DNA of 64,000 nucleotides from Psychrobacter alimentarius. GTDB taxonomy: Bacteria; Pseudomonadota; Gammaproteobacteria; Pseudomonadales; Moraxellaceae. A model generated the notes under the pieces. It ran no database searches. It was given only the letters and a program-made list of their open reading frames with translations, and was not told the origin of the DNA. A program made the translations under genes and the position numbers. Below, in pieces: positions 6,971 to 24,990 of the stretch (position 1 is its first letter; every line of letters begins with the position of its first letter). The stretch lies in NCBI RefSeq assembly GCF_001606025.1, contig NZ_CP014945.1, positions 1,240,001 to 1,304,000 of the forward strand, in the 5' to 3' direction.

Positions 6971-8371
6971 ATGTCAGACCGTTACGGTGATTTTGTTCAG
7001 TCTTCTATTGGCAAAAAAGTTGCAAAGAACTTAGGCTTGCCTTTGCCAGTCACACTTGACCGTTTTGAGAGTGGTGAGCGTTTGGTCCGCGGTAGTGTTT
7101 TGGTGGGTCGCGCCAATGGTGAAGACAAAAGTGTCAGTGAATCAGTTGCACGCATCTTATCGGATGTGCATGCTGAGGTGTTCGTTAACAGTCATGACGA
7201 TGTCAAAGACGCATTGGCTGATGCAAGTGTAGAAGCAAAAGCCAATACGGGCGGTGATGATAAATTTAAAGTATTGTTGTTTGATGCCAGTAATATTCGT
7301 AATTCGGATGAGCTCAAGCAAGTGTATGAGTTCTTTCATACTGTTGCACGCCGCGTAGAAACGTCAGGCCGAGCGATCGTTGTTGGTCGTCCACCTGAGC
7401 AGATTACAGATATCGAAACGGCATTGGCTCAGCGTGCGCTCGAAGGTTTTGTAAAATCGGTGGGTAAAGAGTTCAAACGCGGCATCACCGCACAGCTTAT
7501 TTATGTAGAGGAAGGCGCTGAAAAGAATCTGGATTCAACGCTGCGCTTCTTTACTTCGGCACGCTCGTCTTATGTGTCAGGTCAAGTAGTACGCGTTAGC
7601 AAGGGGGATTCGGTTGAGGTTGATTGGACACAACCACTGGGCGGAAAAACCATGTTAGTTACTGGTGCAAGTCGCGGTATTGGTGAAGCGATTGCTCGTG
7701 TATTGGCACGTGAAGGCGCTCATGTTATTTGCTTAGATGTACCGCAGCAACAAGGTGACTTGCAAAAAGTAGCAAGTGAAATCAGTGGTTCTATTCTAAC
7801 CGTTGATATCACCAGTGAAGATGCGGGTGCACAAATTGCAGATGCTGCGCAGAAACGTGGTGGCTTGGATTCAATCATTCATAATGCTGGTGTGACTCGT
7901 GATAAGACGCTTGCAAAAATGGATGAGAAAAAATGGGACATGGTCATCGATATCAATCTGGGGAGTGTGGCCAAATTAAACCGTTATCTATTAGATAACG
8001 ATGTCTTAAAAGAAAATGCACGTATTGTCTGTGTATCATCAATCTCAGGTATTGCAGGTAATATGGGTCAAACCAATTACGCGACCTCTAAAGCGGGTGT
8101 TATTGGTTTGGTTGATGCGACTGCCAAACAATTAGAAAACAATGCAAAAGGTATGACCATCAATGCCGTGGCGCCAGGATTTATCGAAACACAAATGACA
8201 GAAGCCATTCCATTTGCTATTCGTGAAGCGGGTCGCCGCATGAACTCAATGAGCCAAGGCGGTCTACCAGTGGATGTCGCTGAGACGATTGCATGGTTGG
8301 CATCACCTGCGTCTGGTGGCCTGAATGGCAACACAGTGCGCGTCTGTGGTCAGAGCCTACTTGGGGCATAG
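6971..8371 (+). CDS. 3-oxoacyl-ACP/CoA reductase, two-domain FabG4 type
   Basis: The 466-aa protein is twice the length of ordinary FabG. Residues 1-215 form a degenerate N-terminal Rossmann-like domain. Residues 225-466 are a complete short-chain dehydrogenase: TGASRGIG (231-238) binds NAD(P), NNAG is represented by HNAG, and the catalytic residues are S357, Y370 and K374 in NYATSK. This architecture is that of FabG4 (high-molecular-weight ketoacyl reductase), which prefers NADH and long-chain CoA substrates in mycobacteria. AGGA precedes the ATG. Neighbouring thiolase and MaoC genes supply the previous and next steps. Confidence 0.92.
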   Translation: MSDRYGDFVQSSIGKKVAKNLGLPLPVTLDRFESGERLVRGSVLVGRANGEDKSVSESVARILSDVHAEVFVNSHDDVKDALADASVEAKANTGGDDKFKVLLFDASNIRNSDELKQVYEFFHTVARRVETSGRAIVVGRPPEQITDIETALAQRALEGFVKSVGKEFKRGITAQLIYVEEGAEKNLDSTLRFFTSARSSYVSGQVVRVSKGDSVEVDWTQPLGGKTMLVTGASRGIGEAIARVLAREGAHVICLDVPQQQGDLQKVASEISGSILTVDITSEDAGAQIADAAQKRGGLDSIIHNAGVTRDKTLAKMDEKKWDMVIDINLGSVAKLNRYLLDNDVLKENARIVCVSSISGIAGNMGQTNYATSKAGVIGLVDATAKQLENNAKGMTINAVAPGFIETQMTEAIPFAIREAGRRMNSMSQGGLPVDVAETIAWLASPASGGLNGNTVRVCGQSLLGA

Positions 8372-20877: not shown

Positions 20878-21061
20878 GGCATATACTCCTCATTAATAGT
20901 AAGCAAAAACCGAATGCACAAAAAAACTCACACAGTTTTATGTGCGTTTGAAATAGTCAAATTAACTGGCTGAGCTGGTTGTTTTATTCACTTTATCATA
21001 TACTTTTTTGCTATGCTGTAATTGAACATACATAGGCACAGGACAACAAAAAGGACTTTTT

Positions 21062-21949
21062 ATGGCTAATCCCTCTAAGAAAAAAATTACCAAAACCGTT
21101 AAAGGTAAAAATATTATCATTACAGGTGCCTCAAGCGGTATCGGTGAGCGTACTGCCTTTTTGCTTAGTGAATGCGGTGCTCATGTGATTTTGCTGGCTC
21201 GAACTGAAGATAAGCTAAAAACGGTCAAAGAAAATATCGAAACACTTGGTGGAAAGGCCAGCTATTATCCATGCGATCTCACTAACATGGACGATATTGA
21301 GAGAACCAGTAAAAAGATTCTTGAAGATTTTAAGCATGTGGATGTATTGGTAAATAATGCTGGACGCTCTATTCGTCGCTCAGTACATGAGTCTGTCAAT
21401 CGCTTTCATGATTTTGAGCGCACCATGGATATTAACTATTTTGGTGCTGTTAAAATTATTCTTGGTTTTTTGCCCACTATGATTGGTCGCCAAACGGGTC
21501 AAATTGTCAACATCTCATCCATTGGCGTACTGGCAAACAGTCCTCGTTTTGCCGCATACGTTGCATCGAAGTCAGCACTAGATGCATTTAGTCGCTGTTT
21601 GGCGGCCGAAGTCAAAGGCGATAATATCAAAGTGACCAATATTTTTATGCCATTGGTACGTACGCCAATGATTGCACCAACCAAATTGTATCGTTATATG
21701 CCAGCATTAATGCCTGATGAAGCGGCAATGATGGTCGCAAAAGCCATTGTGCATAAACCCAACAGTATTGCCAGTAATATGGGTAAGTTTGCCTCAGCCA
21801 GCTATTCTTTGATGCCAGCATTTAACGTCGGTGTGCAGTCAATTGGCTATCGTATCTTTCCAAGTTCAACAGCAGCGCAGACAACTGACAGTAAGCCAAA
21901 CTTGGCGCAGCGCGCCTTTGCTAGAATCCTTCCAGGTGAGCATCACTAA
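21062..21949 (+). CDS. Short-chain dehydrogenase/reductase, classical SDR
   Basis: A 295-aa SDR with the NAD(P) motif GASSGIG near residue 24, NNAG near 100, catalytic Ser in NISSIG, and YVASK (Tyr and Lys of YxxxK) near 166. The C-terminal 70 residues are longer than in minimal SDRs and resemble fatty-acyl or sterol-type reductases with a membrane-associating tail. AAAGGA precedes the ATG. It stands alone and is followed by a strong terminator. The substrate cannot be inferred. Confidence 0.88.
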   Translation: MANPSKKKITKTVKGKNIIITGASSGIGERTAFLLSECGAHVILLARTEDKLKTVKENIETLGGKASYYPCDLTNMDDIERTSKKILEDFKHVDVLVNNAGRSIRRSVHESVNRFHDFERTMDINYFGAVKIILGFLPTMIGRQTGQIVNISSIGVLANSPRFAAYVASKSALDAFSRCLAAEVKGDNIKVTNIFMPLVRTPMIAPTKLYRYMPALMPDEAAMMVAKAIVHKPNSIASNMGKFASASYSLMPAFNVGVQSIGYRIFPSSTAAQTTDSKPNLAQRAFARILPGEHH

Positions 21950-21975
21950 AATAATGTTGTTATTAGTCCTGACAT

Positions 21976-22003
21976 AAAAAAGGATACGACGGTATCCTTT
22001 TTT
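21976..22003 (+). terminator. Rho-independent terminator after the SDR gene
   Basis: AAAAAAGGATAC and GTATCCTTTTTT are perfectly complementary around a four-base loop. The A/T-flanked hairpin may work on both strands. Confidence 0.93.
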
Positions 22004-22108
22004 AATTCCTTACCTATTTATATTAATGCTCGTATAGTATAAATGGGTAGGGCGTTGGTAGCATTTTTCTCTTAGTGGCTTATCTAGATCAAAATCTATC
22101 CAAAACCT

Positions 22109-22136
22109 ATTTAATATAACGTCCGTTATGGGAACA
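22109..22136 (+). other. XerC/XerD (dif or pdif)-like recombination site
   Basis: The site has the canonical 11-6-11 layout: a XerC-type arm ATTTAATATAA, a six-base centre CGTCCG, and a XerD-type arm TTATGGGAACA. From memory, the first arm matches the E. coli dif XerC arm (ATTTAACATAA) at 10 of 11 positions and the second matches its XerD arm (TTATGCGCACC) at 8 of 11, with the inner ATAA/TTAT dyad intact. It lies in a 250-bp gene-free stretch at the left edge of a small accessory region. It could be the chromosomal dif site or a scar of a Xer-mobilised element. Confidence 0.6.
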
Positions 22137-22251
22137 TATTCCATTTGCCATACAGGTAGCGAAGCATTGGCTACATAATTAGCATTCTTTCGTCTATCAT
22201 CCTAAATTATACGAAATTAATTGACCACAGACTTTGATCATAGGAAAGAAA

Positions 22252-22610
22252 ATGTCGTTCTTTTATCCTAAAGATGTAGATTTTATGGAGATGTTTGGAT
22301 GCGAGAGTCATATAGATAATGATGGTTTGCTAGAGTCCACATTCATTGATACACAAAATAAAAAATGGTTTTTTCTATCAGTGATATGCAGAACTCAATA
22401 TCTGCTTATGTATATCAAGATGAAGCAGTAATATTTAAGATATATGAAGAAGGAGCGATGAGGGTCATGATATATGAAAATCAGATCATTATAGAATATC
22501 TGAATTATCAGGATTTATACGCTAAAAGACTGACTATTATTGATGTGTATCCAATATTTAAAATTGACCACTGTACTCTGATAGACAAGGATATGAGCCA
22601 ACTAAACTAA
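22252..22610 (+). pseudogene. Frameshifted gene for a ~119-aa protein of unknown family
   Basis: Two overlapping frames together make one protein. It starts at the ATG at 22252 (AGGAA upstream). The first frame reads through about residue 40 (ending NKKWFF) and the second continues SISDMQNSISAY to the stop at 22610. Adding one T to the six-T run at 22369-22374 restores a continuous 119-aa acidic reading frame. It could be a real pseudogene, a phase-variable homopolymer or a sequencing error. I do not recognise the family; small acidic orphan proteins of this kind are often immunity proteins, but that is only a guess. Confidence 0.6.
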
Positions 22611-22647
22611 ATGCCTTACAGGTATTTTTATATTAAGATATATCTAC

Positions 22648-22680
22648 ACCGAACCAATCAGGCTCCCTTACTGGTTCGGT
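22648..22680. repeat. Nine-base perfect inverted repeat in the accessory region
   Basis: ACCGAACCA and TGGTTCGGT enclose 15 bases. No T-run follows on either strand, so it is not a standard terminator. It sits 37 bp after the broken gene. Confidence 0.75.
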
Positions 22681-22836
22681 TCCCTAGTGAGGACTTGAAC
22701 ACAGAACCTAAATTATTGATATTAAATTTTTTTATATTGATGGTCGCTATCAATGTACTTGTGAGTGTAATTAATGTGATTAACTCGAAGGTTTTTCTGA
22801 CTTGATTCATTCTTTTATTATCCTTAAAGCTACTTA

Positions 22837-22953
22837 CTAGACAGAATGTAAAATCACTAGATAGCCTTGATAAAGAACATATAGCCCAACACCAAAAGCT
22901 AAAAATAGTATAGCTATCAAGCACAATAGGATTATCTTGCTACTTTTTTTCAT
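22837..22953 (-). CDS. Small single-pass membrane protein, 38 aa
   Basis: An uninterrupted 38-codon frame begins with MKKSSK and continues with about 24 hydrophobic residues (IILLCLIAILFLAFGVGL, then YVLYQGYLVIL). This is a textbook positive-inside single transmembrane segment. GAG lies eight bases upstream of the ATG, with AGGA further out. Such Lys-start, Leu/Ile-rich peptides are common small membrane proteins, and similar ones occur in type I toxin systems. No homologue is recognised and there is no evidence of expression. Confidence 0.45.
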   Translation of the reverse strand: MKKSSKIILLCLIAILFLAFGVGLYVLYQGYLVILHSV

Positions 22954-23101
22954 TTTATTTCTCAAATCCTAGCTAAGGCTTTTTATATCTGTTTTGACGT
23001 TCAATATCATGGCGAGGGTGTGTTGTTCTTCACGTCCAACTTTAGGTAGTGGATAGATGCGCTCAATCTTGCGCTTATCTCATAAAATCGTGTTCGGTGC
23101 G

Positions 23102-23605
23102 CTATACAGGCATCGATCTGCCAGATATAACTTCAACGTATATAGGCTGAGCATATAATTCAAGGCTATTGATATCATGCACTACTTCATCGTTCCTACT
23201 CTTGTGAAAAGTAAAAGTTGCAAACCTCCCAACCTCATCATCTTGAAAACCTATTGTTATATTAACGCTCTCTAAAGGAAAGTCTATAAGCCATTTTTTC
23301 TTGAATTTGTTAGAAAATATGATGGACTGGATTAACGGGTCTTGGTCTGTAAAATCTTCTATATGAAACCTATTAGTAGAAACTTCATAACCCGAAAAAT
23401 CAGTAAATTGTCTTTCAATCTTATGTTTTTCAATTGAACAGCGAGCATAGCTTGAAGGGAATATTTTTTCTAGAAAAACGCAGTCACCTATCGGTAAAAA
23501 CCCTTCTTTTAAGATAAGGTCTAACTCCTTATCTAATTTGCCTTCTCGTATTTCACTTTCATTAATATCTAAAAACTCTTTCATCAGTAGATTGGTGTAA
23601 ATCAT
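23102..23605 (-). CDS. Hypothetical protein, 167 aa
   Basis: An acidic, soluble 167-aa protein of unrecognised family with no signal peptide or membrane segment. The ATG at 23605 has AGGG eight bases upstream; a later in-frame Met (MKEFLD, residue 8) is possible. The low-GC codon use resembles the neighbouring broken gene and differs from the flanking core genes. Together with that gene it could be a leftover from a toxin/immunity or similar cargo region, but this is inference from size, composition and context only. Confidence 0.6.
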   Translation of the reverse strand: MIYTNLLMKEFLDINESEIREGKLDKELDLILKEGFLPIGDCVFLEKIFPSSYARCSIEKHKIERQFTDFSGYEVSTNRFHIEDFTDQDPLIQSIIFSNKFKKKWLIDFPLESVNITIGFQDDEVGRFATFTFHKSRNDEVVHDINSLELYAQPIYVEVISGRSMPV

Positions 23606-23830
23606 AGCTTTGCCCTAAATGTCCTATTAATCCAGTGTAGATAATATGAATCATATAAACATTACCAGTAAATCTTTTTTGTACTCATTGATTTAAAGTA
23701 AGGATCATAAACCAGGGTATACCCCAAGGGAACTTTCAAAACAGGGCTCTTAATCAATTAATAGACCACTTAAAGTAGACCGCTATATTGGAACTACTTA
23801 AAACAGATTGGAAAACCTAAGAGATCCTAA

Positions 23831-24298
23831 TTACCCAAACACCCGCCATAATATCCAAAACATACCCAGCATAATCACCGCAATGACCAGTACTCTTTTT
23901 AGCCAATAAGGTATCAGTGGTTTTTTATAGCCCAAATCTTTGAGCCGAGTGTCAACGCCTGTTTGCAATGTTTGAAAGTCTTGATGTGACTTGGTAGTTT
24001 TGACGCGATTTTTTACTAATGGGTCTTCATCCTCATCAGGTTCTTGTTCTCTATCAAAGCTAATAGCGTGATTAGAGATGCCTTGTTTGTTGGCAATGGT
24101 ATTGAGTTTTTGCTGCTGCTGTACTTTTAGCTGGGTTTCGTAGGCATCAATTCGTACCTTGGCCTCATCCATACTGATGTTTTCATCGGCTGCCAATGTC
24201 TTAATGGCCATGACTAGGTTGTTTTTTTCGATCATCATGATAACCGCTTTTGGCAGTTTTTTACTGGCTGATTTGGAGCTGGGATCAGGATTGAACAT
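23831..24298 (-). CDS. Tail-anchored membrane protein with an L7/L12-CTD-like segment
   Basis: A 155-aa protein. The start is the ATG at 24298 with AAGGA five bases upstream; an earlier in-frame start would lack a ribosome site. Residues about 12-52 (KAVIMMIEKNNLVMAIKTL, then DENISMDEAKVRID) resemble the C-terminal domain of ribosomal protein L7/L12, a fold reused in uncharacterised bacterial membrane proteins. A charged middle region (EPDEDEDPL) follows, and residues 133-153 form one C-terminal membrane helix. The function is unknown. It lies downstream of ppa on the same strand, separated from it by a terminator. Confidence 0.7.
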   Translation of the reverse strand: MFNPDPSSKSASKKLPKAVIMMIEKNNLVMAIKTLAADENISMDEAKVRIDAYETQLKVQQQQKLNTIANKQGISNHAISFDREQEPDEDEDPLVKNRVKTTKSHQDFQTLQTGVDTRLKDLGYKKPLIPYWLKRVLVIAVIMLGMFWILWRVFG

Positions 24299-24372
24299 GA
24301 TTTTCCTTATAGCAGCGTGCAATAGGGGTAAAGAGAATGTTTTATTATAACCATTTTATATAAGTAACGTTC

Positions 24373-24414
24373 AAGCAAAAAAATACCGCAGTCACGATAG
24401 TGACGGCGGTATTT
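24373..24414 (-). terminator. Rho-independent terminator after ppa
   Basis: AAATACCGC pairs with GCGGTATTT and an inner GTCAC pairs with GTGAC around GATA, with one mismatch between the two blocks. On the minus strand the hairpin runs into a T-tract. It sits 45 bp past the ppa stop. Confidence 0.92.
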
Positions 24415-24459
24415 GAATCGTATTTATCTGTACGAGCATAAATATCAATCTTGGATAGA

Positions 24460-24990
24460 TTATAGATCTTTCCAGCGCTGGATAGATTCTTTGATGACTT
24501 CTTTGGCTTCTTCTACGTCGCCCCAAGATTCAACCACAGTGGTACCTGCTTTTTTCAAGTCTTTATAGTGGCTGAAATGGAACTCTAATTGGTTGATAAG
24601 TTGTTTTGGCAGATCGGCTAGGCTGTTATATGCATTACCAGTATCACGGTCGTCGGCTGGTACCACAACGATTTTGTCATCCACTTCGCCATCATCAACG
24701 AACTTCATCACACCAATGACTTTGGCTTTTAGGAAGATGCCAGTCGGTAGAGGTTGTTCAGTCAAAATCAACGCATCAAGCTCATCACCATCTTCGTCAA
24801 GCGTTTGCGGGATAAAACCATAGTTACAAGGCTTAGCAAAAATCTGTGGGTCAATACGATCAAGCTCAAATACCGCCAATTCGCGATTCCACTCAATTTT
24901 ATGGCTGCTACCAGTTGGGATTTCTACTACTACATTGATGATGCCGCCATCTACGTCGCCTGCATCTAGAATTTTATTAAAATCTGCCAT
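24460..24990 (-). CDS. ppa: Inorganic pyrophosphatase
   Basis: Family I soluble pyrophosphatase, hydrolysing PPi to drive biosynthesis. From the ATG at 24990 (GGAG nine bases upstream) it is 176 aa, the same as the E. coli enzyme; a TTG four codons earlier is less likely because it overlaps the ribosome site. The signature EDGDELDALIL holds the Mg-binding aspartates, and KYxxD-type residues are in the N-terminal EIPTGSSHKIEW region. Single-gene unit with its own terminator. Confidence 0.97.
   Translation of the reverse strand: MADFNKILDAGDVDGGIINVVVEIPTGSSHKIEWNRELAVFELDRIDPQIFAKPCNYGFIPQTLDEDGDELDALILTEQPLPTGIFLKAKVIGVMKFVDDGEVDDKIVVVPADDRDTGNAYNSLADLPKQLINQLEFHFSHYKDLKKAGTTVVESWGDVEEAKEVIKESIQRWKDL

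Follow-up and report, generated by a model that had tools for sequence, protein, structure and literature searches.

A dif-like Xer site as the probable left edge of a putative gene-cassette island in Psychrobacter alimentarius

The 28-mer ATTTAATATAA-CGTCCG-TTATGGGAACA, located at positions 22109-22136 of the window (the whole stretch of 64,000 nucleotides that was analysed, corresponding to C1:1,240,001-1,304,000 of the 3.33 Mb chromosome of Psychrobacter alimentarius), is probably a dif-like XerC/XerD site distinct from the chromosomal dif and, to judge from sequence comparison, is the left-hand anchor of a cassette island that extends to position 23809. The structure of the island, with its edges and the presence of the same cargo at different loci and on plasmids, appears well supported by the alignments, and we infer that XerCD acts on the dif-like site, and a small serine resolvase on the internal boundary dyads (R) and the res-like right end. 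More tentatively, with somewhat less than even confidence, the island may represent a gene-cassette system of the cold-loving genus Psychrobacter, integron-like in function, in which a small serine resolvase would cut at GTTC...GAAC dyads of ~27 bp. Its arrays would be docked on the left at dif-like Xer sites and closed on the right by a res site, two unrelated recombination systems sharing a platform that moves cassettes between plasmids and fixed chromosomal hot spots.

The 28-mer and the chromosomal dif

The 11-6-11 arrangement is present at 22109-22136 as the preliminary description of this DNA gave it, and the identity of the arms was assigned by comparison with the host dif. On the forward strand, ATTTAATATAA (22109..22119) is the XerD-type arm and matches the host dif arm ATTTAACATAA at 10/11 positions, CGTCCG (22120..22125) is the 6 bp spacer where the host dif has TATACA, and TTATGGGAACA (22126..22136) is the XerC-type arm, matching the host arm TTATGCGAAAA at 9/11 positions; it is by this layout and these arm matches that the 28-mer was classed as a XerC/XerD site. 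The two differences in the XerC arm do not agree with the near-invariant XerC arms that had been invoked for such sites. The 28-mer is present in a single copy in the 3,349,444-base genome when up to 3 mismatches are allowed, with 0 control matches.

The 18-letter gammaproteobacterial dif pattern, searched with up to 3 mismatches, matched 13 genome sites; 0 mismatches were found only in the true dif and 1 mismatch only in the 28-mer of the window. A looser dif scan, which gave 145 matches in 400 kb genome samples, was discarded. The pattern match alone is moderate evidence that the 28-mer is dif-like, a resemblance of this degree being expected by chance in a few per cent of cases according to our rough estimate. 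A chance resemblance in AT-rich DNA could appeal to the reversed control pattern, which also matched at 6 sites, but it is highly improbable given that homology edges fall at the 28-mer and that dif-like sites are linked with R throughout the genus (61 composite sites versus 6 in the control), a linkage which places the 28-mer far beyond chance.

The true dif, ATTTAACATAA-TATACA-TTATGCGAAAA, was found with the gammaproteobacterial pattern at C1:1657593-1657620, about half way round the 3.33 Mb chromosome and 395 kb from the 28-mer of the window, which lies at 1.262 Mb. In 20 kb samples the GC skew is positive in 10/10 up to 1.55 Mb and negative in 10/10 from 1.70 Mb; since the sampled skew switches sign between these positions, the terminus lies near the true dif. 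The genome search set against GC skew, which had been proposed as a check, thus located a better dif match elsewhere, and the suggestion that the 28-mer is the chromosome dimer-resolution site and marks the terminus, understandable from its 11-6-11 layout and dif-like arms, retains next to no probability. In fact, the sole exact match to the pattern is the one at C1:1657593 near the sign change, a dif with the TATACA spacer occurs in nearly every genome among the matches listed (G000-G075), from which the spacer of the window differs, and the 28-mer is missing from the orthologous locus in G088 and other relatives.

Architecture and homology edges of the island

The site lies between a terminated core gene and a run of low-GC orphan ORFs, a placement borne out here. 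The left core flank is a short-chain dehydrogenase-like (SDR) gene (21062..21949, forward strand), an ORF named from its sequence that shows 85-99% protein identity in 17 fetched relatives with both flank genes (in one of the 17 the match covers the last 94 residues only), and a terminator-like hairpin, read from the sequence, follows its 3' end at ~21976-22003. The right core flank is a 163-aa gene on the reverse strand (23831..24322) with a weak SHOCT-like match below the cut-off. Between the two, a DNA search against 105 genus genomes delimited the modules M1 (~22108-22700), M2 (22678-23119) and M3 (23090-23808), pieces of which recur elsewhere and end sharply at common borders; M1, a module found at 91-95% identity in other genomes, has the dif-like site as its left edge.

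Next to the 28-mer, 5 bp and the first cassette-boundary dyad, R1, occupy 22137..22164 on the forward strand, as aligned with seven other M1 copies. M1 also contains Cargo 1 (22234..22610, forward strand), made of two overlapping frames (22234-22431 and 22365-22610) that had no Pfam match; it is apparently a small gene broken in the window, and a 119-aa ORF is annotated at the matching place on plasmid pA53P4. A motif scan indicated a possible res-I-like right-end remnant, ATATATCTACACCGAACC, at 22638..22655 (forward strand). The internal cassette boundaries, both on the forward strand, are R2, GTTC-GGTTCCCTAGTGAGGACTTGAA(C), at 22674..22700 and R3, GTTC-GGTGCGCTATACAGGCATCGATC, at 23092..23118. 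In M3, Cargo 3 (23102..23605, reverse strand) encodes a 167-aa protein whose homologues carry the precomputed Pfam family PF27221 in 23/23 cases and, when an organism name is attached, all belong to Psychrobacter; the Pfam scan itself named no cargo ORF of the window island. The right end is a res-like site (23717..23809, forward strand) consisting of a GTATACCCCAAGGGAACT core followed by repeated subsites. A second dif-like site flanking the island, which the preliminary description proposed to look for in related strains, is absent from positions 21,000-24,500 of the window when the pattern is searched with up to 2 mismatches. The 28-mer is to be seen as a Xer-type edge of a mobile accessory region, as had been suggested, although the idea of a scar left by one Xer-mobilised element is too simple, since several cassettes with ~27 bp boundary dyads of their own are stacked in the island and its right edge is res-like.

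R2 and R3 are related dyads of ~27 bp, GTTC-GGTTCCCTAGTGAGGACTTGAAC and GTTC-GGTGCGCTATACAGGCATCGAAC, in which the first four letters are variable, and other cassettes start at one or the other. Their general form is GTTC-N7-(TATA/TAGT core)-N7-GAAC, with the dyad symmetry highest at the core (0.55 in R3 and 0.43 in R2, versus a mean of 0.25).

The left edge was profiled on eight M1 copies from unrelated locations. Seven come from genome assemblies, an 18.6 kb contig holding one of them, and the eighth from a plasmid record; one copy is off register by one base. L043, L071, L079 and L112 (locus shared with L069) were left out. Mean pairwise identity is at background to the left of the dif-like site (0.29-0.41), reaches 0.85 in the XerD arm, falls to 0.48 in the spacer, the least alike part, and is 0.79 in the XerC arm and 0.68-0.71 rightward. 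At locus B, where four different cargo starts are found among five genomes (L076 left out), identities are 0.80-0.96 to the left of the dif-like site and 0.40-0.46 to its right; the empty locus B sites of G000 and G088 are too diverged for defining an insertion point.

In order to weight for redundancy, 146 R sites were reduced to 91 upstream/downstream combinations in the breakpoint test. Sites sharing only downstream DNA drop to background to the left of R and those sharing only upstream DNA drop to the right of it; the left arm of R tends to go with the upstream DNA, and the right arm follows no decisive trend. The test supports the view that cassette breakpoints are confined to R, the crossover being placed within R as a whole and not at its core. 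An unweighted profile had seemed to point to a crossover close to the core of R (position +1 behaved in the opposite way); as its pairs are not independent, it was set aside in favour of the weighted version. Breakpoints inside R also stand against its being accessory DNA of a cer/psi-type site, a less favoured explanation to which the frequent spacing of ~117 bp between R2 and R3 on the XerC side would be congenial.

Hybrid sites with an R3 left half and an R2 right half occur, among the matches listed, at G017:C10:16480, G021:C34:15109 and G022:C13:98177, and reverse hybrids at C1:1806256 of G000 and in G044; hybrids account for 1 of the 121 classified R sites. Such a pattern is the one expected of natural recombinants.

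The right edge was examined on 65 distinct res-like ends. Seven cargo tails at locus B have an identity of 0.30-0.39 to the left of the GTATACC motif and of 0.82-0.97 from this motif onward, and tails common to different loci are alike until GTATACC and locus-specific thereafter. In particular, locus A (L036) also has the M3 tail of the window, and locus B (L044) has a more diverged form of it. In L082 (G058:C89), the sequence changes at ~7229-7237 from the left flank of locus A to the right flank of locus B, and this change, which falls at a dif-like site, is due either to a rearrangement through the cassette site or to an assembly error.

Exchange by ordinary homologous recombination between short conserved repeats, for example after natural transformation, with the sites as regulatory or relic plasmid sequences, would explain the replacement of cargo at the same locus with conserved ends, and breakpoints that are not narrowed to one base pair are compatible with it. 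This explanation is nevertheless unlikely, as the same cargo is present at unrelated places whose left flanks are at background identity, R has dyad symmetry, and the right-end element adjoins a resolvase gene in three plasmids.

The content of these loci is variable. In the 17 relatives compared at the SDR locus (six further fetched loci, with one or both flank genes missing, were left out), 0.9-9.5 kb separate the flanks, and a res-like end was recognised in 9/17 (two degenerate), the other 8/17 being without it; these ends were judged by eye, as were right-flank duplications, the locus B replacements and the order of elements in six plasmid-type sequences treated below. The closest fetched relative at the locus, G088 (flanks 93 and 91% identical), has neither the 28-mer nor the island. 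Names for the SDR-locus cargo come from reading ORF sequences alone and suggest an arsenic operon (G082), TerC with DedA (G012), nickel genes, a VOC protein and a sterol desaturase. Loci A and B provided 50 deduplicated cargo ORFs, 20 of which were scanned with Pfam, with no match in 10/20. MerR, MerC, HMA and a pyridine nucleotide-disulphide oxidoreductase stand together in G034 and resemble a mercury operon, while the other named cargo comprises Imm44 and barstar, both orphan immunity genes, DUF2247, a glycosyltransferase, another MerR and an insertion-sequence integrase core.

Distribution in the genus, plasmids and recombinases

The composite pattern, a dif-like site followed by 5 bp and CGGTNCNCTA, R being the ~27 bp dyad, was searched together with its reversed form as a control. 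It matched 61 sites in 43/105 genus genomes versus 6 in the control, and 4 sites in 243 family genomes of other genera versus 4 in the control; the window copy is outside the 61 composites because its R1 is too diverged for the pattern. Per-position conservation of the composite sites is biased, the selecting pattern demanding the same letters, and only the association between the 5 bp and the type of R was drawn from them. This association, calculated from 54 distinct sequences, one of which entered both types, amounts to 0.73 bit at the first position of the 5 bp, a value reached in 0/2000 shuffles. Since the pattern fixed the 5 bp beforehand, the spacing was re-tested on loci chosen otherwise, in which R lies within 55 bp of 11/33 dif-like sites and is absent within this distance from 22/33. 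The spacing is 5 bp in 10 of the 11 and 6 bp in the other, all on the XerC side and facing away, with 0 R on the XerD side.

Taken singly, the elements are more widespread. A looser definition of dif-like sites, under which the true dif also counts, gave 206 in 103/105 genus genomes versus 46 in controls; R2-type sites number 461 in 94/105 genomes (3 in the control), with a maximum of 12 in one genome, and R3-type sites number 228 in 81/105 genomes (0 in the control). Outside the genus, the R2 type gave 4 sites in 4/243 family genomes versus 3 in the control and is thus nearly confined to Psychrobacter. A dif-like site lies directly 5 bp upstream of only 20/121 classified R sites (32 more are unclassified); R is thus not coupled to Xer sites. 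Two arrangements deviate from the single composite: at G102:C6:38904-38959 a dif-like site is flanked on both sides by outward R-like sequences (overlapping matches on both strands, with 2 and 3 mismatches), and one array of G056:C12 has two composites, at 21038-21079 and 23131-23172, in direct orientation and 2.1 kb apart.

The distance of 5 bp is also seen in one family of insertion sequences: IS1202 elements are described as starting 5 bp from the XerC side of dif sites and facing away (PMC10132070). The cassettes could accordingly be non-autonomous transposons that depend for movement on a TnsB-like transposase of the IS1202 family, with R and the right motif as inverted repeats and the dif-like site as target. 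The position and orientation of R at 10 of the 11 dif-like sites with a nearby R would fit this explanation, as would the roughly inverted relation of R2 (GGTTCCCTAG) to the right motif (AAGGGAACC) and the start, at the 5 bp, of one 99% match between contig C2 and locus B. It is all the same rather improbable. With IS1202/ISAjo2-family elements, known as dif site hunters, the start 5 bp from the XerC arm is shared; in the Psychrobacter cassettes the 5 bp goes with the type of R and is therefore not simply target-derived, no 5 bp duplication was seen at three loci judged by eye, the boundaries fall inside dyads, and in naturally occurring R3/R2 hybrids the change from one type to the other lies in the core. 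Moreover, the window island, whose largest ORF has 167 aa, contains no ORF of the size of the 440-aa transposase (~440-457 aa in the family).

Plasmids share both sites and cargo with the chromosomes. Contig C2 of the host (16.9 kb) was treated as a plasmid, its replication and MobA/MobL regions matching plasmid pA3H11 at 95-96%, and has stretches 96-99% identical to locus B of other species (G063 and G056), which end inside their GTATACC core; the 99% match begins with the 5 bp adjoining the XerC arm and not within the dif-like site. Plasmid pA53P4 carries M1 and a 28-mer of the window's type. The same cargo is thus present on plasmid and genome in two cases, M1 (pA53P4 and other genomes) and C2 compared with locus B. 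In PLSDB, a dif-R2-R3 query found 39 plasmids (31 from Psychrobacter, 5 from Acinetobacter, 2 from Moraxella and 1 uncultured), and the res-like element with its neighbourhood found 60 (49 from Psychrobacter, 8 from Acinetobacter and 1 each from Moraxella, Klebsiella and an uncultured source). Six sequences, C2 and five named plasmids, have a res-like element, ~40 bp and then a dif-like site (degenerate in L181-L183), and R3 comes next in 4/6 of them. In L176, L181, L182 and L183, two plasmids of Acinetobacter baumannii and two of Psychrobacter including the permafrost plasmid pKLH80, R3 lies beside an RTG/CARB-16 beta-lactamase gene, and 3/4 also have the res-like/dif-like composite.

A serine resolvase gene is located 13 bp from the res-like element in plasmids L177 (an 81% fragment), L179 and L184, whereas no annotated resolvase directly adjoins the element in L180, L181, L183 and L185. 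In L182 a resolvase of another type lies ~180 bp away, and this second type is also near dif-like sites in L178, L170 and C2. The resolvase domain was confirmed with Pfam in 5/5 tested plasmid proteins. At genomic res-like ends a resolvase is usually not adjoining, and no serine resolvase gene adjoins the res-like right end of the window. The host encodes two serine resolvases (on C2 and at C1:2208204), a XerD above the NCBIfam cut-off and a XerC-like protein for which the XerC model is the best match but stays below the cut-off (298.8 versus 335.15); tyrosine recombinase (PF00589) has no match inside the window and 13 elsewhere in the genome.

Proposed mechanism and relation to known systems

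According to the proposed cassette system, host XerCD would recombine the dif-like site and in this way join or release arrays borne on plasmids and on the chromosome. Single cassettes would be moved by a small serine resolvase, whose gene some plasmids carry next to the res-like site, through cuts at the cores of R and res. The dif-like site would be a docking or edge site that is used sometimes, with R and res as the main boundaries, because R rarely adjoins a dif-like site and the C2 match starts beside it.

Different known systems share single traits with this island. The plasmid multimer-resolution sites cer and psi consist of a Xer site with accessory DNA on the XerC side, and the res of Tn3-type transposons is a multi-subsite element directly upstream of the serine resolvase gene. 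The six plasmid-type sequences in which a res-like element is placed ~40 bp from a dif-like site recall both, but the Psychrobacter sites edge swappable cargo and do not serve only dimer resolution. Integron arrays are stacks of small genes, often of unknown function, with conserved boundary sites; the Psychrobacter island likewise has stacked small genes and conserved boundary sites common to several loci, with the differences that the window has no tyrosine recombinase gene such as intI and that the boundaries are ~27 bp dyads and not attC (attC being compared by description).

In site and cargo the island also resembles systems of Acinetobacter, where pdif is described as a 28 bp XerD/XerC site with a variable 6 bp spacer, distinct from the chromosomal dif, and dif modules carry accessory cargo on plasmids and on the chromosome (PMC6449649, PMC12907356). 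Both traits, the 28 bp XerD/XerC site and cargo on plasmids as well as on the chromosome, are also found in Psychrobacter. However, Acinetobacter modules are described as bounded by inversely oriented pdif pairs (PMC13141974), unlike the Psychrobacter island, which has a single dif-like site as its left edge, R dyads in its interior and a res-like right edge. The screen of Acinetobacter plasmids, as presented in PMC6449649, required an identity of at least 75-80% to Acinetobacter reference sites; for 31 Psychrobacter plasmids the same paper reports that pdif is absent. In the titles and abstract openings of the open-access literature searched, no description of such a system in Psychrobacter was found, and the island was regarded as a relative of dif modules and of plasmid systems based on res.

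If this interpretation is correct, cassette exchange would be widespread in Psychrobacter, considering that R2-type and R3-type sites occur in 94/105 and 81/105 genomes, respectively, and Xer-linked gene mobility would extend beyond Acinetobacter. The arrangement would also suggest a route by which plasmid genes reach fixed chromosomal spots and would provide a testable case of serine-resolvase sites serving gene trade.
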